From contig JAAOMT010000543.1 of the NCBI GenBank assembly GCA_016748015.1, positions 372,001 through 436,000 of the forward strand: DNA of 64,000 nucleotides, in the 5' to 3' direction. Under the pieces are notes generated by a model. That model worked only from the letters and a program-made list of their open reading frames with translations, was not told where the DNA came from and ran no database searches. The stretch's first letter is position 1, and each line of letters begins with the position of its first letter. Positions 15,179 through 64,000 of the stretch are shown here, piece by piece. The translations under genes and the position numbers were made by a program. The stretch is from Geosiphon pyriformis (lineage: Eukaryota > Glomeromycota > Glomeromycetes > Archaeosporales > Geosiphonaceae).

Positions 15179-15204
15179 TACCGTAAACTCCCGTGAATAA
15201 GCAA
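15179..15204 (+). repeat. left TA and terminal inverted repeat of the transposon
   Basis: TA followed by a 24-bp TIR beginning CCGTAAACTCCCGTGAATAA, an exact reverse complement of 16718-16741. Confidence 0.92.
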
Positions 15205-16741
15205 TCCCTGTGAATAAGCAACCCTCCCTTTTTAAGTCTAAAAGTCTTAGAAAATTTGAATAAGCAACCCCTTTATATATACCAAAATAAATTTTTAATT
15301 ATTTATCTAATTCTAATTCTTCAGCAGAAATATTATCTTCATTTACTATTTCATTTAAATCATCAATTTGAGTACTAATTTCTGTATCAGAAATATATGA
15401 TAAATCATCCTCAGTTCCATCTAATGCATTAGAAATTCCACATTTTTTAAATGATTTAATAATCATTTCTAAAGGAATATCTTTCCATACCTCTAAAATC
15501 CACTGGCAAATCAAATTATATTGTGGTTTTTTTGAAAATCTCCATGACTCATCCATAATCGCCATTTTTCTCTCAATCTGTCTTTAAATGGTTTGTTTAT
15601 ACATACATCCAAAGGTTGAATAATTGATGTTAAACCGCCAGGAATAATTGCCACATGAGTATTATTAACATTGCATTTTTGGCGTACTGATTCAGTTTTG
15701 TGCCCTTCAAATGAATCCATAACAAGTAAAGAGGTAGGTTTGGATGCTGTTGATATTCCAGGACGTTTGTTCCAAATTTGATCTATCCATTCACACATCA
15801 AATGTTCATCCATCCAAGCTTTTTCATGCATATATACGACAACGCCTTTGGGAAGATTAGGAGGAGTTCGTACACCTTTGAAAATTATCATAGGAGGGAG
15901 TTTGCCGCCATTGCTTTATAGCCAAGACACAAGTAAACCGATTTTTGTCATTACCAGTTGTTCGAATTTGAATAGTTTTGGCTCCTTTTACATTGATTGT
16001 ATTAGAACCTGCCATGTCAAAATAAATGGGAGTTTCATCCATATTGACTATTTGAGAAAGATTATTCTGGTATGCTAGTCGAGATCGGATTATAAATCTT
16101 TGAAATTCGATGATTTTTTCATTCAAATCGTTGCCTAATGGCACTAAAGCAGTCGAAATTCTTCTTGATAATTCCGCCACAGTAATTTAATGGGAACAAG
16201 TGCCAAAAATTAGACGAATACGTCAAATCACATGTTTAGGATACAAAGAGCTTACGTGATCACAAATGAGAAATCCTTTGGAATTAATATAGTATATTGA
16301 TTAAATAGAAATTTGTTAAGATTCTGAGTCTCATAATAATAGTATCCAATTTCCAATTCGAAACTCGACTTGATAATTTTTGCTACAATGAACCCAAGTT
16401 TCTTAAGATCAACATTACAAGTGCTACAGTATATACTGCTCGAAATCATGCCTCATCCAAAGGTATTATTTTTGTGTTGTTGCATTTCACACAAGTATCT
16501 ATTTCACCACGTTTATAATAATCGAAATATCAGCTTCTAATACCAACGAAATGGCTCAACCAGATGGTCAATAAATTAGCGACGCGATTGAAATTCGTAA
16601 TAGATATATGCACAGTGAATAATTTAACCATTGGACCAATAGGCATTAAGTATTCAAAAAGTCTCGTGAATAAGCAACCCCCCTAAAAAATCGATCCAAA
16701 ATTGATGACGTAGGGGGTTGCTTATTCACGGGAGTTTACGG
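15181..16741. mobile_element. pogo-like DNA transposon with TIRs and TA duplication
   Basis: A 1,561-bp element is flanked by TA on both sides (15179-15180, 16742-16743), the target site of the Tc1/mariner/pogo superfamily. The terminal inverted repeats are a perfect 24 bp (15181-15204 and 16718-16741), starting CCGTAAACTCCCGTGAATAA. The core GTGAATAAGCAACCC recurs as subterminal repeats at about 15210, 15257 and 16666 in direct orientation, besides the TIR copies. The element carries a frameshifted DDE transposase on the minus strand. Roughly 560 bp between the transposase start and the right TIR hold no recognisable DNA-binding domain. Perfect TIRs suggest a fairly recent insertion. Confidence 0.92.
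15299..16180 (-). pseudogene. pogo/Fot1-type DDE transposase, two frameshifts
   Basis: Three overlapping minus-strand frames together cover the DDE_1 catalytic core: 16180 to about 15885, about 15891-15530, and about 15565-15299. The catalytic acidic residues are visible: NMDETPIYFDM, then LLVMDSFEGHKT, then IIPGGLTSIIQPLDVCINKP. The tail contains IKSFKKCGISNALDGTEDD, typical of pogo relatives in mycorrhizal fungi. Two frame changes break it, one near 15880-15890 and one in an A-run near 15530-15540. No N-terminal HTH/CENP-B DNA-binding domain is seen upstream. Either it is a dead copy or the homopolymer shift is a sequencing error. Without the DNA-binding part it is unlikely to be autonomous. 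Confidence 0.88.
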
Positions 16742-36019: not shown

Positions 36020-37185
36020 GATGAAATGGATACCAAAATGTACAAAGTTTCACTTATTCAATTTTGGTGCTCCAAGACTTATTAATACTATTCTAAAAAT
36101 CATTTGTATTTTATCTAGTAACAAATCAAAAGTAAAAATATATCTTATATACAATCCGATTTCGGAGAATTTCATCTATTAAGGCCAAATTTTTCAAAAA
36201 TAAAACACTTGAAGGCAAATAAATTTAATTATTATACGGTGTTTAACCAAAGCATCCTTTTTTATATTCACTGAATGGGATCATTAAAAATGATTATCAC
36301 AATTATTCGCGATTAAAAGTTTTCAATCTCATTGATCGTAATGGATGAGATATTCTGATTTCAAAACTATTATTCAAAAATAAATTTTACATATTACAAA
36401 TAATTAATTATTTTATTTATTGGCTAAAAATAGAATTATTTCAATCACAGAAGCTCTTAAAATGAATTCAGCTGAATTATTTTTCTACAGTTTATTTAAA
36501 GCTGTTATCGTTGGCTTTAGGGCTTAACATCCAAGCTGAGTGATTTTCTTCAATAGTCTACTCATCTTTTGAAACTCGTGAAATACTTTTTCTTTAACAT
36601 AATAACAAATGCACACTTCCCAAAACAGCTTTTTGTCTACTGCTAGCTCTGAGACAAATATTTGTGAACACTCGATATTTGCTAAACCTGTTTTCTAAAA
36701 GGTGAAAGTGAAAATGTGGAAAAGAAATTCTCGCAAATGTATTTCAAAAATTTCTGAAATTAGTATCATTACTTGTTTTACTTTATTACAATACGAGCAT
36801 CTTAAAAATTTAGCGACCAGCCATTAGAAAGACTCAAAATTAATATTTTTCATTATATCAAAATATTGTTGTATGTGTTAAATTATATTTTCTGAAGTCA
36901 AAGAAAAATTTTTGATTTACTACGTGGATGAAAATTTTGAGAAAGTATATTTTAAATATATTATATGATAGTACATGTACTTGGACACAAAAAACGATTA
37001 ATTCCATACAACACTTTAGACCTAAGTTAGTATTTTATAAAAATATTTCCATAAGATTACAAATTTCAGGTTAAAAGTTTTTCAAGTCTTCAGCAATGAG
37101 TAGGGCACTAAGTCTTTCAGAATTTTATATTCTCGTATCAATATTCCCTGATTCAGTGACAATAAAGTCGCATTTATATCAACCT
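36020..37185. other. intergenic
   Basis: About 1.2 kb of AT-rich sequence without a supported gene, between the paralogue pair and the palindrome. Confidence 0.5.
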
Positions 37186-37573
37186 AAAATTCAAAATTTT
37201 CACGTAGAATAAAGAGCATAATAAATCTTTCGAATCTTGGAACAAGACTAATTCGATATACTTGACGGCCTGGAATTCTGAGGGTATAGGCATCCCATTC
37301 AAGTTTTTGTTTAGGCAGTACAACTCTAAAGGTCTTTTTAACACGATGGTTTTGTTGCAAGGAGTTATCATAGAAATCATGATTTCTATGATAACTCCTT
37401 GCAACAAAACCATCGTGTTAAAAAGACCTTTTGAGTTGTACTGCCTAAACAAAAACTTGAATGGGATGCCTATGCCCTCAGAATTCCAGGCCGTCAAGTA
37501 TATCGAATTAGTCTTGTTCCAAGATTCGAAAGATTTATTATGCTCTTTATTCTACGTGAAAATTTTGAATTTT
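37186..37573. repeat. 388-bp near-perfect palindrome (inverted repeat with no spacer)
   Basis: The arms 37186-37379 and 37380-37573 are reverse complements over 194 bp. Reading both through I find two mismatched pairs (CTAAAGG versus CCTTTTG, and GGTATAG versus CTATGCC). The centre is GAAATCATGATTTC (37373-37386) with no loop. Because of the symmetry the two strands encode almost the same 104-residue frame, which has no recognisable domain. It could be a foldback element, a head-to-head duplicated transposon end, or the template of a long hairpin RNA. No target site duplication is evident at the edges. Confidence 0.93.
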
Positions 37574-39352
37574 TAAGTTTTATTAGTAGATTATTAGCTT
37601 CGTGATAATTATAAATTTAAAATAGTTTAGTTAATGCCATATTAATTCTATACTTTTCAATAAATAAAATTTTGAAGCTTTTAAGATAGCCCTAAATCTT
37701 GTAAAAGTTTTGGGTTTTAACCAAGATTATAACATAATTATTAATCACTTCAAACCAGTTAATTCAACAAATAGATGATTTAGTTCAATTTAGAAATAAA
37801 ATAAATTCTTCTTTGACTGTTATTATTAATCACTTCTGATATTTTTCTTTCAACTTAAAAACAGCTCTATGTATACGTGTTGAAAAAGTTAAAAACTATG
37901 ATAATAATAATAATAGCATTATTTAAAAATAAAGAATAAAAAATGCTAATCTCATAAATTAAGCGTAAAGATATTCTGTAAAATATTTTATCCAATTCTG
38001 AAATTCACTTTTCTATATTCCTCTTATATATGATCCAAAATTTTTAATTAGATTTGACTCATGATTTTGTAGGTTTAGTTGATTACTGCAAGAAGACTTT
38101 CTTAAAAAATTTTTTGCATATGCAAACAGTAAATATCTTGTTGGAACCACTAATTATCATCTGATTTCTAGAACATGTTTCATAAAAATAGCAACTTTGG
38201 AAAAAACATCCATAATCTGCTAAAAGTAAAAAACGCTTGTTTTGCCTTGCATACAAAATCCACCAAAGGCAATATTTTGAACAGCTCTTTATGATAGCTT
38301 TATATCTAAGTGTTAATGCTAGATTTGTTATAAAGTAGCTATAATAATATAATAATAATAATTATTATCTACATTTTTTTCATTATTTTGTTTAAATTTA
38401 ATAACAAAAAAACACAACTGTAAAATATATTTTGTCTAAAATAATTTTAACTGGCTTTTTGTAAGTAGAAAAAACAATATTTTAATAGCATAATAATAAT
38501 ATTTTTATTAAGCATGCAAAGACTAAATTTTTATAAAACCATGCTTTTAATTAATAGAAATATTATATACTTAAAAAATTTATTAATAATAATATTCAAT
38601 ACTTTTTGCAGTCTTATTATAAATTTACATTTGTTGCTTTTTTGAAAAGCTTGTAAAAGTCATTATTATTTTGCTGTATAAACTATGGAAAATTATGTTG
38701 TATAATGTAAATATGAATAAATTTATTATTTAATATTAATAAACATGTTTATTGCTATTTTTTATCTGTTTTAATTCTCTTGTTTTTTTGAAAAGAGGAG
38801 TTCTTAAAGCAAGACAAATTCATGTGATTTTAAACCAATAATAAAATGATCAATCTATTTATACGCTAATCAAGATTAAAATAAATCATGTGACCGTACT
38901 TGCTTTTAAGGGTAATTGCCAAATTTGATCACACGTGAGGTTGTGTGAAAACAAATACATAAAATTACCCTCTATCTGTCAGTAGTTCGAAGTTGGTGAT
39001 TCAGTTTTTAATTTTTATTATGACGTAATGATGATTATTAAAAAAAGTTCCGTTGGGGCTTTTTAAAATTGATCTTTCAACTCTAAAGAGAAAGCTGTGC
39101 ATATACAACAAGTTGACGACCTTGGAACCAATGAATGAGACCTCTAAATTGTATTTTGTATCATTAGGAGATCTTGATTAATGGCATCTATTCTTAGCAA
39201 TGGGTCTTGAAAATCAAATTTTAGAGTTACAAATCCAACACGAAAGTTTTTGATCTTTTAATACTAATTTTTTATTAAGGGGTGTCTAATTTGGCAATTT
39301 TTCCGTAATATAATGTCTTTGTTTCAAAATTTCTTGGTAGGCTAAGTATAAC
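37574..39352. other. AT-rich intergenic stretch
   Basis: About 1.8 kb with no supported gene. 38.3-38.8 kb has the look of the AT islands, with many ATAATAATA tracts. Confidence 0.5.
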
Positions 39353-44170: not shown

Positions 44171-44728
44171 TAATAGATTTATACGTGAAATTCTTTTTTC
44201 TAATTTGTTTTCATTTGATTATTAATCTAATTTTTTATCTTTATATTACCTATACTTTTACATTAAATTTTAATATAATATGTTATTAGTAAACTTTAAT
44301 CCATATTTTTATATATTTTTTTATTGAATTTTGCTTAAAAAAAATTGACCTTATTCAACTAGTAATTATAATTATAATAGGAATTTTATATAGTACAATG
44401 TCTATTTAAGATGTCTAAGAAATATAAAATTTGCATTTGGTATTTGCTTAGAATATATTAAAAAATTATAAATTGCTTATATATAATAATAAATAAAATG
44501 TATACAGAAAACTATAATGTATATTAAGAATATATTTGTAAAATATAAGGAATTTTATAATAGTTTTTACTGATTATAATTATTATAGTTGTCAAAACTT
44601 ATAAGTTTGTTTAACAAGTCTATTCTGCTAATTATATTATTATGAATTAGAGTAAACAAACAATAACATTATATTATATTACAAACTAATAAAATTTTTT
44701 ACTAAAACAAATGCATTTCAAATGTTTT

Positions 44729-45020
44729 ATTTCATATTTTTATTCCTCTAAATGTTTAATTCATCTCAAATTTTTCTTAAAAAAATTTCGAACATTAGTT
44801 ACCGGTAGATTTTAATGCCTAAACTATTGTTAACATCACTAATGTTCAATTTACAACAGCATATTGAGCCTTTGAATACAATACTTTTACAAAATACTTT
44901 TAACAAAAATAAAATTCAAAATACTTTTTTGCTATTGAATACAAAAAAAGTCAATTTTACTATTCTTATTAATTAAATCTTAATAAAAGTAATCCAAACT
45001 AGCCAAATTAAAAGACAACT
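44729..45020 (+). repeat. AT-mutated copy of the repeat at 47747-48060
   Basis: It aligns with 47747-48060 through anchors such as CAACAGCATA, AAATTCAAAAT and ATCCAA.CTAGCC. Nearly all differences replace C or G of the other copy by T or A, on both strands and in several dinucleotide contexts. There is a deletion of roughly 30 bp near the end. The coding frame of the other copy is destroyed. Confidence 0.7.
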
Positions 45021-47559
45021 TAGAAACAATACAAATCTCTTTTAATTATTTATTGTTTTTGCTAATTGTGCTTCGACAAAAGTGGACAAGTAAAAGATTT
45101 CCTGTTTATATTGTGTTGTCTTTTCAATATATTTAGTTGCATTTCATATTTAATAAAAATTTACATAAATTATAGTAATAATAGCATAGATAATTATAAA
45201 AATTTATTTTAATACTCGACAAAAAGTTGTCAAAATGATAATAAAAATCTTAAGCAGTTGGTAAAAATTATTTGTTAAAAAAGCTTAATGTTTTACTAAA
45301 AAAAAATTTATGATTTTTTTGATAATTGTAAAAAAAAACTTTTACATATTGCCAAAAAAAATATTATTAAGAGAATAGTCATAAATATTTAGAACATAAA
45401 AACAATAGCAATAATAATTTTTTATATAAGTTAACTAAAAAACAATTGGGATTTTATTTAATATTTAAAATAAACTATATATATATAATATTTGTATAAT
45501 AATTTCTTAAGCTCTATTTTTATGATTAATTAAATATATCAAATTTTTTAATCTAAATTTTTTGTTTTTTAAATTTAAAAAAATAAAAATATTTTTTTTC
45601 TTATTTTAAAATTTAGTATAAAAATAATAATAATAATAATAATTTTAATAAGATATTTTAAATTGGAAAAAATAAAAAAACTTTTATATTGTTAAGATTT
45701 AATTTTAATTTTTTCCATTTTATTAAATTTAAAAAACTTATAAATAAATAAATAAAAAAACATAAAGTGTATTAAAAAGCAATCAAAATAATTAATAGTA
45801 ATAAATTCTAAAATTTAATTAAAATATTTAAATTTTAAATGTTAATTAACAAATTTTCAAAAATATCAAATTATTAATTTATATATTAACTTTATATATT
45901 TAATTATGCTTAATAATACATAAAATTATGTTTAAATTAACTTGTTTACTTTTTCAAAAAATATTAAATTTGTAACTTATATATAATATAATAATAATTA
46001 TTATTATTTTGTTTGTTTTTTTTTAATTTTTTAATTTTATTAATATGTTAAAAATAATTAAAAATATTTTAATAAAAAAATTAATTACAATTAATTATAA
46101 AATTATTTTTAAAAATAGTAAAAATTTTAGTGCTAAATATTATTGCAAATTATATTTTAATAAAATGTAGTCTAATCATTATCTATATTTATTATTATAC
46201 GAATTTGCTATAAATTTTAATTTTAATTTTTTAGCTATTTAATAACTTATATAACAACTAAATATTTAATCTTATAAGCTAAATAATGTAGTTTAATTAA
46301 ATTTATATTTTTGCTAACATAAAAAATTGTTATTTTTACTAATTTATAATAAGATAACTTTTAATTTAATTTTAAATATATTTGTAATAAAAATAAATTT
46401 TTTGTTAAAATTTAAACAGTTAAATTTAAACTTTTATAGTTAAAATTTTTAAATTTAAATAGTTAAATAATAATATAATATTAAATAATATAAATTTTAA
46501 TAATTTTAATTAATTTGAATTAAATTTTATTTTTTTAATATGGCTTAAAAAAGCAAAATGTGTTTTTGAAAAAATTGTATTAAGTTTTAATTTAACATGT
46601 TAAAGATATTTAAACATTTATTAATAATAATTAAATAATTTTTATTAATAAGATCAAAATTGAAAACTTTTGAATTTTTGATAATTTATACAAAAGTGTA
46701 TTTTTTATTTTTTTGTATATTAATACAACAAAAAAACCAAAATTTAGTAATAATTAAAATAATCTATTATATAATATTTTTTACACTTTTTTTAAATAAA
46801 ATTATGCATTAATAATAAAATTTATTATATCTGTATAATTATTTTAATAATTGTTTCTTTAATTATATACTTACAAGTATGAATTTTGTTTTATAAGACT
46901 TAGTAAAAACTTTTTTTAAAAGTTATTTCAAATAATATTAACCAATTTTGTATTTAGTGTTTTATGTTTTTTTTAGACTATTAATAATATCAAATCTAAT
47001 GTTTTATTTAAATTAAAAAAAATTAATAATATTTTATTGTTACCAATCAAAAATTTAATTAGAAATTATTATAAAATTATTCTTAATTATTAATAGTATT
47101 AGTTAAAAATTATCACAAAATTATTCTTAATTTTAGAAATTTTAACTGGTTCTTAAAAATTTAATTCTGAATAAAATAATTCTGATTTGGCTTTAACTTT
47201 AAGCATTGTTGGTTCCATAATTTTTTTAATTATATAACCAAGCATAAAACCCAATTTTATCTAAAAATAATTTAAGAATCATCTTATATATAGATAATAG
47301 TAATAAATGTAATTAAATAAGAATCAAACAAAATAAGCAATAAGTTATAAAACGATACCAAGTTAATTACATAGTTTTATCCCATTATATGACTCACAAA
47401 TTTAGCTTTTTTTCAAAATCAAAATTTGTTTATAATTCTGTCTGCTTTAAAAATACTCAACAATCTTTATTCTTATTTTTCCCTCCCAAAAAATATTTTT
47501 TTTTAATTACGTTCATATTAAAATTGTTCCGATTACTAAAAGCATGATTTATGAAAGTT

Positions 47560-48110
47560 TGTTGTGATTGGGCCACACTCGTTACTGCAATAAATAAATA
47601 AAAATTCGGTCACATTTTTAGGTCTCATAAACTAAATCCTTGGATTTCAGTCCTGTCTAGGATCGGCGGTCCTTGGACTGGATCGGACTGGATGGACCAA
47701 TTAAAATCCCTAACGCGCCTCGACCGCATCTCAAACCTTTTTTATTCGATATTTTCGTCCCTCCAAAATGTCTAGTTCGTCTCAGTCTTTCCAAAAGAAT
47801 CCAGAACGTTGGTCACTGGTGGATTTGACGCGTGAGCCATTGCCAACGTCGCTGGCGCCCAAATTGCAACAGCATACCAGGCCTTTTAAATACGATACTC
47901 TCACGGGACACCTCCAACGAAAATGAAATTCAAAATGCTCTTCGGCTAATGGATACAAAGAAGGTCAGTGCTACTTTCGACTAGATATATAGAGGATCGC
48001 TTTGCAACTCTTGCTGACCACACCTTAGCGGGAGTGATCCAAGCTAGCCGAGCAATATAAACCTCTCCTGATTACTTGTTTAAAATGGATACTAATAAAG
48101 AATGTTTGTT
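47560..48110 (+). repeat. GC-normal pocket, unmutated repeat copy inside the AT island
   Basis: About 550 bp with ordinary GC and many CpGs (GATCGGCGG, ACGCGCCTCGACCGC, GCTGGCGCCC) sit abruptly inside the island. An ATG at 47768 opens 52 codons (MSSSSQSFQKNPERWSLV and onward to a TGA at 47924). Another frame continues with TSNENEIQNALRLMDTKK up to a GTCAGT donor-like site, suggesting the 5' part of a longer gene with a frameshift. No family was recognised. Because an AT-mutated copy exists at 44.73-45.02 kb, this is a repeat that has escaped, or only recently entered, the mutational process. Confidence 0.6.
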
Positions 48111-54989: not shown

Positions 54990-57900
54990 AAAAAATATTA
55001 CTTTTTTTGTATATGAAATTTGTTCAAAATTTTATTTGACCGTCGACTGGTAAAGAATAAAACTTTGATTTATGAAAAAAATTCCCTCTCAATTTTTCCA
55101 TTACTCAGGAAAAATAACGCAAACCACATCATTTTATAAACTTTATCAATAAGATTTCTAATATAATAACCAATTTTATAATAGCAATACAAATTTATAT
55201 TCAATATATATTAATAATAAAATTAAATAAAAAAATTATTATAGATAAACTTACAACTATATTTTGTAGTACTTTTTTTATTAAGCCAACTATTTTGTTT
55301 TTTTCCCGGTATTAATGATAATTTTTGAATTTTTATTGTAAATAATTTTGGTTATAATTTTTTAGTTATGATTTCAATTTATGATTTTCGATTTTTTGTT
55401 AAAAACTAAGTAAATAATCAAAAGTTTATTTTAAGTTAAAGTTGTTTTTTTATACAAAAAAAAAATCTTATTGAAATTTTTAAATCTTTTTTATAATTTT
55501 ATTTATAACAAGATTTTGAACTTGTATTGCTTTTTTAATAACTTTATTAAAAACATTAGATCTATTACAGATTGCTAAAATTATGAATAAACTTAATAAT
55601 ATTTACACCAGTCCTATAATTATTTCCAAAAACCAATAAAGATTTCAAAAACCAACTTTTGAAAACAAATTTTTTGGCAATATTAATACATTATATAAAG
55701 TTTTAAGAACAAAAAAATCCTTCAATAAACAGTTAAATAAGCCAAAATATTTAATTAAAGTATTAATAAAAATACCAATTTTTACTGCAAAATCAAAAAT
55801 ATATAATCGAAATTTTTTAATAAACTAAAATAAAAACAATAAACACTTAAGTATTTGGAATTATAAAGTTTTTTTTAGCTAAAATAGACAATTTGTAATA
55901 TAAAGTTGTCATAAAATATAATTAAAAAATAATAAAATCTAAGCCAAATATATTGATTTTTAAATGTTAATCTAAATTTTATATTAAAACAGTTTTTATC
56001 AAATTAAAATTTTAAGCCAACAATTTTTTAATAAACTTTTAACATATTTAATCTTTTAATTAATAAAATAAATAAAGTAAACATAATTTTTACAAAATAA
56101 TAAATATTTTTAAAAATTGTCTTATTATTAAACATAAAAATTTTTTTTAATATTAAATAATAATATAAAAATAATATTGTATACTTAGGTAATGGTTGGG
56201 CTGCACTTGTAAAACTTTAATAAAAAAAAATATATTGTCAATTTATCTATAAACAATTAACTTAATTATTATTTATAATATTTAAATAATTTTTGACTTT
56301 ATTTTAATAAACAATTAAATTTTTATTTTTGATAATATTATTAATATATTATTTTTTAATTTAATATTAATTACAAAATTACAATTGATTAACAATTCTA
56401 TTTTATATATATTTAAAAAATATTAATTATTCAAATTAATAACAATAATATTAAACACTAATACATATTTTAAAAACAATATTATTGTTTATAATTTAGC
56501 TAAAATTAAAAACATTAAGCTATAAATTTTTATATTTATACCAAAATTAATATTTAAAAAATAAACAATATTATTAATAATATTATAAAAGCCCAAATAT
56601 TTAATTAAATTGTTAATATAAACAGAAACAACTTTTAAATCAGTTTTTTTTAAGCATATTTTAATTGTTACAAAATAATAAATAATTAACAAATATTAAA
56701 AATAAATAACAAATAGTAAAATTAATATACTATTTATAAAATTATTATTAATTATAAAAGTTAAAACAAAATCAAATTAAACAGAAACTAAACTTTTAGA
56801 ATCTAGTTATTTTTAATAGTAAAAGTTTTTTAATTAAAGTAAAATCATTGCTATTTAAAAACTAATTAATAAAAACAATACCAAATTTTTAATAACTTAA
56901 TTACAGTAAAATAAATAAAACAACTAAAACCATTTAAAATTAAAACTTTATTTCTAAAATGAAAAGATATTTATTATATTAGCCAAAAATTATCTTAAAA
57001 AAAATTAAAAATCTAACTAAAAATAAAAAATATTATAAGAACCAATCTAAAACTTATAAAGTTTAAGTTTTATAAAAAAAATATATATTAAAAACATTAC
57101 AAATATTTGCAAATATTATAATACTAGTTACTTTATTTTAGATTAAATTTGTTAAAAATCTTTAAGTTATAAAACAATAAATAATACAGAAATTTATTAA
57201 AAAGTTTTTGAAGAGATTAACATTAATTTTTAAATATTTATAAATTAAAAAGTTATATTTTTTACATATGTTTTTATAAATAAAACTAAATTGAATTTTA
57301 TAACTAATAATAAATTATAAAACCATTAATATTAAATAGAAAAATTGTTTATTTGAAATAGCTTTTTTTAATATTATATTAACAAAAAATTTAATATTTA
57401 TATATTTTTTAATTAAACTAAACTTATATAAGCAATTCATTAATAAAATTTTTTTTAACAATAAAGATAAATAAATTATTAATGCTTAATAAAACTTCTT
57501 TGGTTTTCTAATTAATAAAAATAGTTATAGTTTTATTATTATTTATTAAAATATTATTGATCTCAAAAAATTTACTAACAATATTTAAAATATGTTAAGT
57601 AATAGTTTTATTATTTTTAATTTAAATTATGTTATTAATAAATATATTAACAATTAAATAAAAAATTATTTTACCTTTTATTTTAACTTTCTTAATTTTA
57701 ATAATAAATTTGAAATCAATTTTGTAATTATATAAATGTTTATGTTTTTTAATTTTACAAAAAAAAAGTCATAAAAAATATACAAAAAGTAAAAAAATTT
57801 TATTTGTTATAAACTGAAAAAATATAATTAAATATAATTTTATTAAAATTTTTTTGGCCATTTTAATTAAAAAAATAAAATAAATATTAATTAAAATATT

Positions 57901-60900
57901 TTTTTATTTATAAAGTTTAAGAATTATTAACATCTAAATTTTTTTTATAAAAAGCAAATACAAATTTACTTAATAAATAAAAAATTTATTTATCACTATT
58001 TTTTTGGTTTTAATTATTTATAATTTTATTTATCTTAAATTTAATATTATTAAGCTCTAAAATCAAATTATTATTATTAATTAAATAATCTAAAACAACT
58101 TTATAAAAAGAATACTTTAGTATAATTTAATTATACAATTTTTATTATTGTCAAAGTTTTCTGTATTTTTTAATAACAGTATTTATTTTGGATGTTTTAA
58201 CTATTTAAAATTTATAGTATTTAAAATTTCCTATATATCTTCTTAATTTTAGACAAAATAAAATCAATATTATAATAACTTAAATCAATTAATAATATGT
58301 TCTGTATTTTAAAAGTTTTAATATTATTAATAAATAAACAAATACCCAAAAGTTGTTTAAATTTAAAACCAAGACTTAATTTTAATTTCATAGTAATTTT
58401 AAATACTAATTGTTTATTTTTGGTACAATTAAATATTTTATACCAAATTTTAAAAAAATTTTATTAACTAATAAACATAAAATGTTTTTTTAAAATAATT
58501 TATATAGTATTTAAATTCTTAAATTCTTTTAATTTATTAAATATATTAGTCATAACTATAGTTTTTAATAAAAATAAATTCTTAAAGTAATTTTATTTAT
58601 TATTATTAATATTTTTAAAGTTGTATTTTTAATAATTTTTATTGGTTTGCTTGAACAAAACATTAAATTAAGTATTCAAAAAATTATCTAAATTAACAAA
58701 TATCAAAATAATTTTGTAATTAAATTAAAATACTTAGATATTTTATATATATATTGTTTAACAGGAGCAATAAAAAAACCTGTTAACAAAAATATAATTA
58801 ATTATCTTTTTTATCTCTTTAAAATTATTTTAAGTCAAAATTTTAATCTTAAAAAAACCAATAAAGAAATTACATAAACCTAATTTTAAATACTTTCTAA
58901 AACTAATATTATATTTGATATTATTTTTGTTAAAATTACTTTCTAAAACCACAAATATACTGGTGTTTATCACTTTGACAATAAAAAAATTAATATCAAA
59001 AGTTTAATCTAATTTTATGTTAAGAGATGTCTTAATATATAAACCAAGTATTATAACTAAAATTTTTTTTTAAACAATAAATAAACGAAAAAATAAATCT
59101 GAAATTTTTAAAACTTAAACATATGTTTAATTAAATTATTGTTTATAATTATTGCAATTTCAGAATCCAAAAAATTCGAATATAAACACATAAACTCTAT
59201 TAAATTTATTTATTATTTATAATTTAACATTATTTTTTAGCTTTGTTTTTGTAATAATTGAAACTATATTATTTATATTTTTATGTTATTTAATAATATA
59301 TTTTTATTTTGTAAGATTATTTATTTCTTTTATATTACATATAATAATTTTTCAAATTAAACTAGTTATTAAAAAAAGATATAAATAATTTGCTTTTAAA
59401 AACATTTTATCAAATTTTATGTATTATTATATTAATAAAACCTAACAGTTTAAATAGTTTAGCTCTAAAACTACCCAATTAAGTAATAACAAAATTAAAA
59501 ATACCAGAGTTTACAGATAATATATTGTTTAAAATTTTATTAGTATTAGATACTAGTATTAAAAATAATAAAGAAAAATAAAATATTTAACTTTATAATA
59601 TTAACATAATCTGGTTAAAAAAAAACTTTAAACTTTATTTTAGTTTATTTAACCACAAAACTGTTAATAAAAAAATAATATTAAATAAAATTCAAAAGAA
59701 ATAGAACCAATTTATTAACCAAAAAAGACTACTTAAATTTAAAATTTGCTATCAAAACAACTAAATACAAGATAAATTTTTTTTAACAAATACAGCTCAA
59801 TTATTATCTAGTATATATAAACAAACTAAGTATTTACAACTAAATATAACTTACACATTTTCTATATGTGACCAGTTATTTAAGCCAGTCAAGACTTTAC
59901 AACTTATTTAATTAAAAAAAACATATCAATATATAAAAAATAAATAAAATTCAAAAATTAAACAAATTTTTATGATTATTTTTTATTATAAAAGTTTTAA
60001 CAAGATTTAAAACTAAAAAATAATTATATAAATATTAATGTATTTATTATTTACTTTTTTTTATTTTTTTGCATTTAAAAATAATTTGTGCATAAAATTA
60101 TACATTATATCTTTGTATTCTATTAGTTTTATTATGCTAATTTAATAAAAATTTCAATATAAATGTTTTTAATTATTAATAATACATTAATTTATTTTTA
60201 AATAATTATTTTTCTTATATTATTAAAGTGTATTTAAAAAATAAAATTTGAATTTTTAAATTACCACAATATTTAGTTATTACAAATTATTATTATTATT
60301 ATTATTATTATAATAATATTAAATTTTGTTATTATTTTTGTAATATTTAGTTTTTTAATTTAAATTAAGCATATTATTTAATTTTTTTGAAAAAATTTAT
60401 TTTTATTTAGCACATAATAAATTTGTTTATATATTGTATTATTTTAAATATTAAACAAATATATTTTACAAATATTAATTGCTTTAAATTAAATTCATAT
60501 TCACTTAACAGATGTTCAAGTTTTAAATTTGTATTAAAAACATAATTCAGGAAATTTGCATTTTTTAAATGTAATAAATAATTTTTTTTATAATTTACTC
60601 TTAATTTGAATATAAGTAACCAAAATTTTTTTCAGTGAGTTATCAGAATTAATTAAAGAAAATCCACAATTTTGGTGGTGTATTAATTTTGTAGCTTAAA
60701 ATTTTGCCTTTTATTATAACAAATTTTTTATATTTTTTTGCTAACTTGGTATTTTTTATAATAATTTTACTTTAATTTGGTTTTGGTTTAAACTAGCTAA
60801 AAAATTACAATAAACAAAATCTTAACTTATTTTTATCAGTAAAAAAATAATCGATTGAATTAAATAAATCATAACCTTAGCATAATTTTCAGAAAAAATT

Positions 60901-61199: not shown

Positions 61200-62300
61200 T
61201 TCCAAAAAATGGAAAGTTTTTTTATATTTTTATGCAATTTGTTTGATTTTGTAGATTTTTTAATAATAAATTTAGTATACATAAGAATGATGTATATAAA
61301 ATTGAAATATATGAAACTTATATATATTAAATCTACTATGGAGCCAAAACTACAGCATTTTACACTTTTTAAAGCAAGAGCAAGGCAAAAAGATTGTTCC
61401 TTATATTTTGAAATTAAAAAATACCCAAGCTGTTAAAAAATATGTGGACCAAGAAAAGATAACTTATGTTTACCAAAGGGGAAAGGCCAAAAAAAGCTAT
61501 TAAACGAACATTGACAAAATATTTTCAAGAAGTATAGGCGGTTATTTCCAGGTTCTATCTGGAAATAAAATAACGCATTTTAGTAAAATTCCAATATCTT
61601 AATATTAGTACCAAATAAAAACCATCGCAACCAATAATGACTAAGTGGTTACTTAATGTTCCCAACTAAGTAGCTATGTAATTAGGAGGCCATTGTTGCC
61701 ACTAGAACATTTTTTGAAATCGACTTTCCCATTTTATCCCTTAATTGTCCTGAAATATATTCTGCCAAGTTCCCTTTAGTAAAGACCATTGAATAGTGAA
61801 CGGCAGCTTGGTCAGAATAGTGTTATGATAAAGACTCCGGAATTGTTTGTATGACCACTTCTCTGGTGTGTGAGTATTCAAATATTCCATGAGTGCTATT
61901 GTCGAAGTAGAGTTGTAAAGTAACTAGTAGAAAATATTATTGTCATTTTGAAAAATATTACCTTTATGACCAGAATAATGTGAAATTGGGATGTTAGATG
62001 TCGATATTGTTGTAGAAGTGAATAGAAGGCGCGAAACGTTGAAAAAAAGGCTGAATACATAATAACGATTCAAATTAGAGACAAAGACAGTGAAGTCTAG
62101 AGATCTTGGAAAGATTAATAACAGCATACATGTTAATAAGTTTTTAGTTCATAGCTACTAGCAGCAAAACAGAGGTATTTTTCACTTAAATAATTGTGCA
62201 GGTAGCAAGCAGTAATAAAAGATTTTCGAGTGATGTTGCCAAGTTACCACATGTTAAAATAAATGATTAAATTTCTAATTCTAATTAAGTCTATATAATA
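61200..62300. other. mixed repeat-like region
   Basis: GC rises toward normal. Short broken coding-like pieces occur on both strands (61209-61520, 62127-61924) without a recognisable family. Probably degraded mobile or duplicated sequence next to the hydrolase pseudogene. Confidence 0.35.
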
Positions 62301-62317
62301 TTATTTTTATTAACAAT

Positions 62318-62830
62318 TTCCGCAAAGTTCCCAATATCACGATTGAAATCATTCTAGGTGTCCCAAAAAAGTAAGTAACCCGCATTGGGATAGGTGATTT
62401 GGGTAGCTCTTGAATTATTGGTGAGCACCTTTGCTGATGAAACTAGTATATTAACTAGATGGTCATCAGGGTGGCAATATTGTGAAATATGTTAACATAG
62501 CCATCATTTTCAGCGTACCCAAAAATTGCAGCTTAAGAATTCGTTTAAAATAAATTTTTAGCATACTTAGATTTCCTTGATGACTAGTTAATGGTGAAGT
62601 AATAGCACCACCTAAAAGAATGTCTTGATCCTCGGATCCCAATAGTCTGGCAGAAAAATAATCAATCAATTGCCTAGTTCCACTCACAACTGTGACCAAG
62701 TTATCTGGGAATATACTCAGTAAAATTTCTCCAAGTTCTATTAATCCAGGCACAAATACAAAGCCAGCTAACTTTTGCTGTCCATACTTTTTCAAATATA
62801 ATCACGCAACAAGATTTCCACAGAACCATC
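62318..62830 (-). pseudogene. decayed alpha/beta hydrolase copy
   Basis: Minus-strand exon 62795 to about 62573 reads LKKYGQQKLAGFVFVPGLIE and further hydrolase sequence (FSARLLGSEDQDIL). After a GTATGC donor the next exon starts AIFGYAENDGYVNIFHNI, as in the intact copy at 63.6-63.9 kb. Then about 25 bp including the start of the catalytic Asp motif are missing, and the frame runs into stop codons. The expected NVGHILFW (catalytic His) is NAGYLLFW. Differences from the intact copy are largely C-to-T and G-to-A (CG replaced by TG or CA). A clear pseudogene. Confidence 0.85.
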
Positions 62831-63623
62831 CAATTAGAATGGCTTTCTAATTGGACAGTCTTAGTTATTATCTTTAAGAAATTCGTAAATTATTATTAAA
62901 ATATATCTCAATAAAACCTTTAAGTAAAATTTTTTATTTATATATTTAAACTTGAAATATTTTATTTATTTATAATGAAAAATTTTCACAAATGTTTTCA
63001 GCATTCCTTTAATTAAAAAAAGCTTTATAATCACCATAATGATTAATAAAGAAAATCCGTGACGGAGAACATGACCATTAGTCATCATTGGCCCAATTTT
63101 AGCAACGGTTTAGATTAAAAATAAACCCATTGGTTTTGCAAATCAAAGATGTTATGAAAGGTTTTTTAAAATACACATTTGCCTTTTGCTTAACAATATA
63201 AGGTTTCAATTCAGCCTTTAACTAACGCAATTATCGTTATTGGATGATATGGACGCAAAATACTTCAAATTTTAGAAAGCAATCATTTATATTCTTAGTA
63301 GCTATAAGTATTCATTAATTCCAAAAAAATTTAATATTTGTTTGAAATAAAAATTTAGCTGGCCTTGTTTTTGAAGTTTCTGTTAATAGTCTTGGGTTTT
63401 TTTCCCAAAGTCTCGAATAATTTTTATTTGTTTCACTCGTTTCACCTAACTGAAATTTTCGGATTTTCTTGATACAAAATAAAATGCAATTTAAATTTAT
63501 GATATATAAATATTAATCGGAAATTTATTAATTAAAGAAATTTTATAATAAAAGTTATTAGTTAAAATAAACGATTACATTTCCTTAAATTCTATTTCTG
63601 ATTAAATCTATACAAAATTTTAT
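62831..63623. other. spacer between the two hydrolase copies
   Basis: About 790 bp of AT-rich sequence with no supported gene. The tandem arrangement suggests that the duplication unit included the hydrolase 3' part. Confidence 0.5.
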
Positions 63624-64000
63624 TTATTGATAAACACCTTTTGATTTAACTTCCATCCTTAAATCTTTTTCCGCAAATTCCCCAATATCACGGTTGAAAT
63701 CTTCATAGACGTTCCAAAAAAGTATATGACCCACATTGGGATAGGTGATTTGGGTAGCTCTCGAATTAGTGGCGAGCACCTTTGCCGATGAGACTGGCGT
63801 ATTAATTAAACGGTCATCGGCACCGAAGATTGCCAGAATTGGGGCGGTAATGTTGCGAAATACGTTAACATAGCCATCATTTTCAACGTACCCAAAAATT
63901 GCAGCTTAATTTTAGCAGAAGCAATATAAGAATTAGGTTTAATCGTTAAAAATAATAATAATCTTTTAAACTATGTAAAAATAATTTTTTAGCATACCTG
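63624..64000 (-). CDS. alpha/beta hydrolase, C-terminal exons (runs off the window)
   Basis: The last exon (63904-63624) encodes 93 residues plus stop: AIFGYVENDGYVNVFRNITA, then PILAIFGADDRLIN with the catalytic acid, then YPNVGHILFW with the catalytic histidine, and a basic tail. An intron (63997-63905, starting GTATGC) precedes it, and three bases of the upstream exon end at the window edge. The nucleophile Ser and the oxyanion region must lie beyond base 64000. The frame is intact and the catalytic residues are present, so this copy is probably active, while its neighbour at 62.3-62.8 kb is dead. Substrate unknown. Confidence 0.85.

Follow-up and report, generated by a model that had tools for sequence, protein, structure and literature searches.

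We found, beyond reasonable doubt, a one-sided C-to-T/G-to-A signature in repeated DNA of this fungal genome, and it is larger than first reported. It affects both strands and several element classes, it has a sequence context of its own, and its load is specific to each copy and unrelated to other divergence. In three of nine DDE_1 loci and nine of 20 MULE copies, 38 to 78% of the C/G sites have been converted, with other change at 1 to 5%. The best reading, which we consider likely, is an episodic, transposon-directed cytosine mutator that resembles repeat-induced point mutation (RIP) and works in an unusual context.

One-sided conversion in a repeat pair and in transposon copies

The signature lies in the window, that is, the whole stretch of 64,000 nucleotides analyzed here. 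The initial annotation had aligned positions 44729-45020 with 47747-48060 and had claimed that most of the differences are C-to-T or G-to-A changes in the AT-rich copy, that they occur on both strands and beyond CpG, and that RIP or a related cytosine-deaminating defence had left them. The alignment held, and so did the one-sidedness: 71 of the 130 C/G sites of the less altered member (copy B) are T or A in the AT-rich member (copy A), 32 as C>T and 39 as G>A from B to A, against 4 of 151 A/T sites changed in the reverse direction (T>C plus A>G) and 12 transversions. By 3′ base, the converted share was 21/39 for CA, 16/28 for CC, 15/29 for CG, and 18/33 for CT; since conversion is similar before every base, it is not confined to CpG. 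The strands differ within the pair, with G>A above C>T (0.71 versus 0.45 of sites). The claims on strand and context held both in A/B and in the heavily converted copies found genome-wide. As for RIP or a related defence, the signature is supported, and the mechanism has not been shown.

The repeat proved longer than first described. Its limits were set in a purine/pyrimidine code, which hides C>T and G>A changes: copy A, hypermutated and at 20% GC, spans 44609-45054 and copy B, at 46% GC, spans 47622-48080, both on the forward strand. In this code they are about 85% identical with a score of 210, against 67 for the top reversed-sequence control. When the longer block was recounted with neutral scoring, 103/192 C/G sites had changed down (to T/A) and 10/229 A/T sites up (to C/G), with 37 transversions; a scoring that penalizes transitions gave 81/192 down, 4/242 up, and 74 transversions. 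The one-sidedness thus survives transition-penalizing scoring, although transversions increase. The sole other DNA match listed for copy B, C338 (130 bp, 73%), differed from it by 7 changes down, 12 up, and 14 transversions. Since this comparison is balanced, A is the altered copy, and only one member of the pair has been altered. The genome DNA search with B did not return A; converted copies are therefore missed, and the counts are lower bounds. All families were sampled by searches favoring little-altered copies.

The genome assembly searched comprises 124.7 Mb in 406 contigs. Within the window, a little-altered piece of a DDE_1 transposon (15200-16200, reverse strand; Pfam DDE_1, E = 6.4e-26 at 15511-15915) served as the genome-wide reference for this family and had 17 matches; of the 16 lying elsewhere in the genome, 12 (in 11 regions) were taken and 4 short ones omitted. 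Load was compared in the nine loci aligned over at least 300 bp. Six are light, with 1 to 7% of C/G sites converted, and three are heavy relative to the window piece: L015 (175/290 down, 3/627 up, 16 transversions), L016 (68/181 down, 1/323 up, 4 transversions), and L017 (170/226 down, 10/517 up, 24 transversions). Two short, older pieces, L018 (17/48 down, 6/169 up, 21 transversions) and L019 (19/45 down, 7/165 up, 17 transversions), show a weaker C>T excess blended with other changes.

For the MULE family, at least 68 matches were obtained (40 of 246 candidates scored), and 20 were fetched, one of them repeating L028. The initial reference, L027, is itself half converted and was replaced with L031. 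The 20 copies whose alignment to it spans 400 bp or more were compared; L029, with no row above the length limit, was omitted. Nine of the 20 are heavy, with 56 to 72% of C/G sites converted and 1 to 2% of A/T sites reverted. The counts against L031 were 326/586 down and 23/1412 up for L034, 337/537 and 27/1344 for L035, 336/477 and 12/1170 for L036, and 285/398 and 14/949 for L037, and five further copies were converted at 0.65 to 0.71. Taken with their flanks, L034 and L031 agree over 2.3 kb at 97% in two-letter code and at 80% in the ordinary four-letter sequence. Copies L027, L028, L032, and L050 are intermediate (20% to 35% converted), and seven short derivatives show 4 to 10% C>T with 5.6 to 7.1% other divergence. 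Compared mutually, the short derivatives yielded 510 transitions and 210 transversions. No hidden converted MULE or DDE_1 copy was found in the window among the listed scores above the best control.

Several features of individual MULE copies were observed as well. L050 is the sole clearly converted one among the eight short derivatives (60/172 C/G sites). In L027, L028, and L032, the C>T load climbs along the element: it is 3-16% over the initial 750 bp, 44-62% between positions 1250 and 1500, and 66-67% past that point in L027; this gradient is unexplained. Converted sites are clustered in L027 and L028. Five pairs among L036, L039, L040, and L049 share converted sites (phi 0.52-0.68), indicating descent from a converted copy or later duplication, and therefore not all conversions are independent events. 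Same-strand tracts of conversion are weak (p < 0.05 in 4 of 15 copies). Sharp conversion edges in L080 and L081 were rejected as evidence, since the MULE is truncated exactly where GC-richer DNA starts and the edge is explainable by later insertion; the neighboring open reading frame (ORF) of L081 is taken for a mobile element.

That ORF has a weak RRM match (E = 0.0023, below the curated cut-off), and we take it to be LINE ORF1. A relative of it, the LINE-like piece L083, showed 157/257 down and 19/405 up. The reverse-transcriptase pieces, which we take to be Ty3-like from their motifs, were sampled as 20 of 150 listed RVT_1 matches, and both subgroups are only lightly altered: subgroup 2 (4 pieces) showed 185 transitions and 3 transversions pairwise, and subgroup 1 (16 pieces), more mixed, 5916 and 1620. 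Across the genome, RVT_1 gave about 6,000 candidates (150 scored). Long open frames are common among them, and stops within the frame were often TGA, as expected from CGA or TGG decay, an impression without a count. Across these four families, the heavy DDE_1, MULE, and LINE-like copies are changed one-sidedly in all contexts and on both strands, showing neither balanced change nor CpG-only decay, the two outcomes that the initial annotation had named as refuting its reading.

Change was two-sided in other repeated sequences used as controls. One is a multicopy family, the C331 cluster, with a member at 62250-63950 (forward strand) and further copies that are spread across about 75 kb of this contig and also occur on C104. 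Counts in it were, e.g., 24 down/20 up (for that member against its longest relative, over 1.1 kb) and 16/34. The other is a C5-methyltransferase gene pair on C318 (911 bp, 90%; 25 down, 15 up, 17 transversions).

Sequence context and strand

Conversion depends on the base preceding the cytosine. In the pooled A/B pair and three heavy DDE_1 copies (hereafter the four copies), the converted share was 0.71 after T, 0.68 after C, 0.47 after A, and 0.43 after G; the 5′ base effect was significant there (p = 6e-11) and in the nine heavy MULE copies (p = 7e-41). Cytosines following a pyrimidine (YC) were converted at 334/475 versus 149/326 for those following a purine (RC) in the four copies (p = 3.6e-12). 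YC exceeded RC in every one of these four; the same held for all nine heavy MULE copies (each at p ≤ 0.0035) and for the LINE-like piece. UV-type damage was considered and rejected, since cytosines without an adjacent pyrimidine were converted, too (ACA 32/71, GCA 16/44).

The 3′ base has a weak effect. The four copies gave 192/317 for CA, 117/180 for CC, 61/95 for CG, and 113/210 for CT (p = 0.11). The nine MULE copies gave 1040/1521, 281/386, 161/226, and 638/1010, respectively (p = 0.0014), with CC and CG leading and CT lowest (shares of 0.73 before C, 0.71 before G, 0.68 before A, and 0.63 before T). Individually, 3 of 13 copies showed a 3′ effect at p below 0.05. When transitions were counted by dinucleotide, the CpA (or CpT) preference expected of classical RIP was absent from both pools. 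The strands were near equal when pooled (0.59 and 0.62 in the four copies, 0.68 and 0.66 in the nine).

CpG sites were converted no more often than others in the pools (61/95 versus 422/707, p = 0.44, and 161/226 versus 1959/2917, p = 0.24), and 12 of the 13 heavy copies lacked a significant CpG excess, the lone exception being L016 (15/26 versus 53/152, p = 0.03). The light DDE_1 copies do show one (16/164 CpG versus 51/1501 non-CpG, p = 5e-4). In Ty3-like subgroup 2, CpG was the most variable (16/20 versus 42/166) and the YC effect was not significant (34/97 versus 24/89, p = 0.27); in subgroup 1, CpG varied at 18/18 versus 147/201, and there was a weak YC excess (98/121 versus 67/98, p = 0.04). 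CpG decay is a signature tied to Masc2-like enzymes (PMC4352252), and the CpG excess in the light DDE_1 copies, the Ty3-like pieces, and L016 resembles it. The excess in lightly altered copies is likely a second, ordinary layer due to 5-methylcytosine loss. CpG decay cannot explain the heavy copies, in which non-CpG sites were converted about as often, and it was rejected as the main cause because these copies are converted in all contexts.

Conversion load and its possible causes

The C>T load is unrelated to all other divergence (Spearman rho 0.10, p 0.60; 30 alignment rows, DDE_1 plus MULE) and is therefore not clock-like. An example is the pair L016 and L009: their other change hardly differs (5/504 versus 7/985, p = 0.55), yet their C>T counts are far apart (68/181 versus 4/318, p = 2e-29). 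We also divided C>T per C/G site by the per-site share of all other change, using rounded values. The resulting ratio was 28 to 48 in 12 heavily converted copies, 6 to 10 in four intermediate MULE copies, 2 to 6 in four light DDE_1 copies, and 0.6 to 1.7 in the seven unconverted ones of the eight short MULE derivatives. The light L014 reached 35, resting on one other change; the ratio therefore does not cleanly part light from heavy copies.

One could argue that the signature is ordinary AT-biased mutation, by which functionless copies drift to the low GC content of intergenic DNA. In favor of such drift, the window (27.0% GC) contains long stretches at 10 to 20% GC, and the end state would be similar. 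Against it, A/T sites and transversions are barely altered while 40 to 80% of C/G sites change, the load has no link to other divergence, and the seven short MULE derivatives carry only 4 to 10% C>T for all their other divergence. Furthermore, L085, a little-altered MULE of about 30% GC, sits within AT-rich flanks (7 to 12% GC on one side, 11 to 24% on the other). Conversion is therefore not regional, and regional AT bias was ruled out as the main cause on this ground. We regard the drift explanation as all but excluded.

A second alternative invokes no active mutator: silenced transposons would be methylated in all contexts, guided by chromatin or small RNA, and would then lose their methylcytosines by slow deamination. 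This is supported by the methyltransferases present, among them C355 with a BAH domain, C327 with a weaker BAH match, and the DNMT1-like C96, and by the CpG enrichment in light copies, Ty3-like subgroups, and the heavy copy L016. The unconverted long repeats are also more easily reconciled with targeting by silencing state than with homology sensing. Against this alternative stands the extent of C>T in heavy copies, 28 to 48 times other change per site; methylcytosine decay usually gives about 10 to 15 times. L016 is 38% converted at 1% other divergence, and 12 of 13 heavy copies are without significant CpG excess. We consider methylation plus slow decay unlikely.

The preferred reading remains an episodic mutator, and an active enzymatic defence whose targets are found as repeats or transposons is inferred from it. 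An enzyme would turn C to T on both strands, acting on transposon copies and on at least one further duplication (copy A). Bouts of its activity would convert about 40 to 80% of the C/G sites of each struck copy and leave sister copies near untouched. The mutator would prefer C after a pyrimidine with little regard for the 3′ base, and CpG decay by 5-methylcytosine loss would form a slower second layer in lightly altered copies.

The proposed mutator resembles RIP as known from Neurospora crassa and other Pezizomycotina in its dense C:G-to-T:A change on both strands of repeats, which affects individual copies and is accompanied by few other changes. It differs in favoring a pyrimidine before C without CpA preference, in the lack of a recognized RID/Masc1-type motif VI, and in that several long repeats and copy B escape. 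RIP acts premeiotically and requires duplication. Under its rule, any duplication longer than about 400 bp and above 80% identity is targeted and both copies are struck. Here, seven of the eight short MULE derivatives (0.4 to 0.7 kb aligned; closest pairs 90 to 98%) are unconverted despite the Neurospora rules, and the C318 gene pair, the C331 family, and copy B escape as well. This escape of long, similar repeats is evidence against these rules. The composite RIP index, which the initial annotation had suggested as a check, was an uneven guide, being above zero in four of eight converted sequences (L017, L035, L036, L037) and below zero in the other four (A, L015, L016, L034).

Candidate enzymes, related systems and lineage

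A genome search, in which weak matches may be missed, returned 10 PF00145 (C5-methyltransferase) matches at 7 loci. C318:788k is single-domain, with no other domain seen, and C318:820k is its inverted relative about 32 kb apart, in which the exon with the catalytic motif was not found; this inverted gene pair corresponds to L001/L003 and L005. C96 is DNMT1-like by a PDB match, C355 has a BAH domain, and C327 has a BAH match below the cut-off; two pieces from the C355 and C327 enzymes had no match in the PDB. C307 and C346 we take to be DNMT2-like by their motifs. In RID and Masc1, QT or ET replaces the NV of motif VI (PMC6572847). All six readable loci have ENV, and no RID/Masc1-type motif VI was recognized in these six of the seven PF00145 loci; in the seventh, C318:820k, the motif VI stretch was not found. 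We infer that the enzyme is a C5-methyltransferase (candidates C355, more weakly C327 with its BAH match, and the single-domain C318 gene) or a deaminase; the mechanism has not been shown.

The deaminase could in principle act alone, as a dedicated APOBEC-like or DddA-like DNA cytosine deaminase that edits transposon DNA without any methyltransferase. The pyrimidine before C and the little demand at the 3′ base, unlike the CpA of RIP, speak for it, and a pyrimidine-before-C context is known for APOBEC3 and DddA enzymes. Searches for the OTT_1508-type (PF14441) and DddA-like (PF14428) families gave no match; no control genome was positive, so this evidence is weak, and it does not extend to the APOBEC families. 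Editing of cDNA would mark one strand, and the strands are about equal here when pooled. Because class II elements are converted, a reverse-transcribed stage is unnecessary, and their conversion on both strands makes an origin in cDNA editing unlikely. A dedicated deaminase on its own appears very unlikely to us.

Other fungal systems share parts of the signature. T before C also belongs to the target of the TpCpG hypermutation of Microbotryum and Pucciniomycotina (PMC5381629). In that system, however, G is required after C, whereas the 3′ base is nearly free here. Hypermutation there reaches on average 1.7 of the 35 target sites in a copy, compared with most C/G sites in our heavy copies. RIP has likewise been claimed outside Dikarya for Entomophthorales such as Zoophthora radicans (PMC10515909); that claim was drawn, with caveats from its authors, from a composite dinucleotide index, whereas ours rests on aligned copies. 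In the literature searched, there was no report of a RIP-like context with a pyrimidine before C and a nearly free 3′ base; the enzyme may therefore be new.

The fungus is probably no ascomycete, a further difference from the RIP of Pezizomycotina. Glomeromycota average 27% GC and lack a detected type I fatty acid synthase gene (PMC11134847), and the genome searched here yielded no type I fatty acid synthase match (one bacterial control was positive). Against primer sites for arbuscular mycorrhizal fungi, the 18S sequence (L030) is one base off each of AML1, AML2, and AMDG, two bases off AMV4.5NF, and four off AM1. The start of its V4 region is unlike that of Dikarya. On these grounds, the fungus is likely to belong to Glomeromycota or a neighboring lineage.

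The initial annotation had stated that such a process, well known in Pezizomycotina, is not established in the kind of fungus suggested by the window. In a survey of 1,239 species, Badet and Croll (2025) found repeat-directed mutation signatures in ascomycetes alone (PMC12543289). No such signatures were detected in Gigaspora margarita or Mucoromycotina (PMC8647823) or found in chytrids (PMC6572847); TpCpG and CpG signatures have been described in basidiomycetes (PMC5381629, PMC4352252). RID is listed for Ascomycota, and RIP-type signatures for Ascomycota and Basidiomycota (PMC13297926). If the lineage is as the low GC, the absent type I fatty acid synthase match, and the 18S sequence suggest (no tree was built), the ascomycete boundary moves.

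A bolder reading can be put forward, which we hold to be less likely than not: an independently evolved, RID-free defence in an early-diverging, probably glomeromycotan or related fungus would mutate autonomous transposons. The same reading holds jointly that most cytosines would be converted, chiefly after a pyrimidine, and that short non-autonomous derivatives and gene families would be spared. If it is true, RIP-like mutation would be either an older fungal defence or one invented repeatedly, and not specific to Dikarya. Dinucleotide indices catch only part of such a signature, and aligning repeat copies could test other AT-rich early-diverging genomes.

A phage search gave 0 matches. Two further features of the window were observed. 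Positions 56001-60000 form a 4-kb block of 10 to 15% GC with low CpG and mostly negative GC skew. A near-perfect palindrome of 388 bp, 99% self-inverted, lies at 37186-37573 and extends over about 36870-37877 in two-letter code; it could be a fold-back element.
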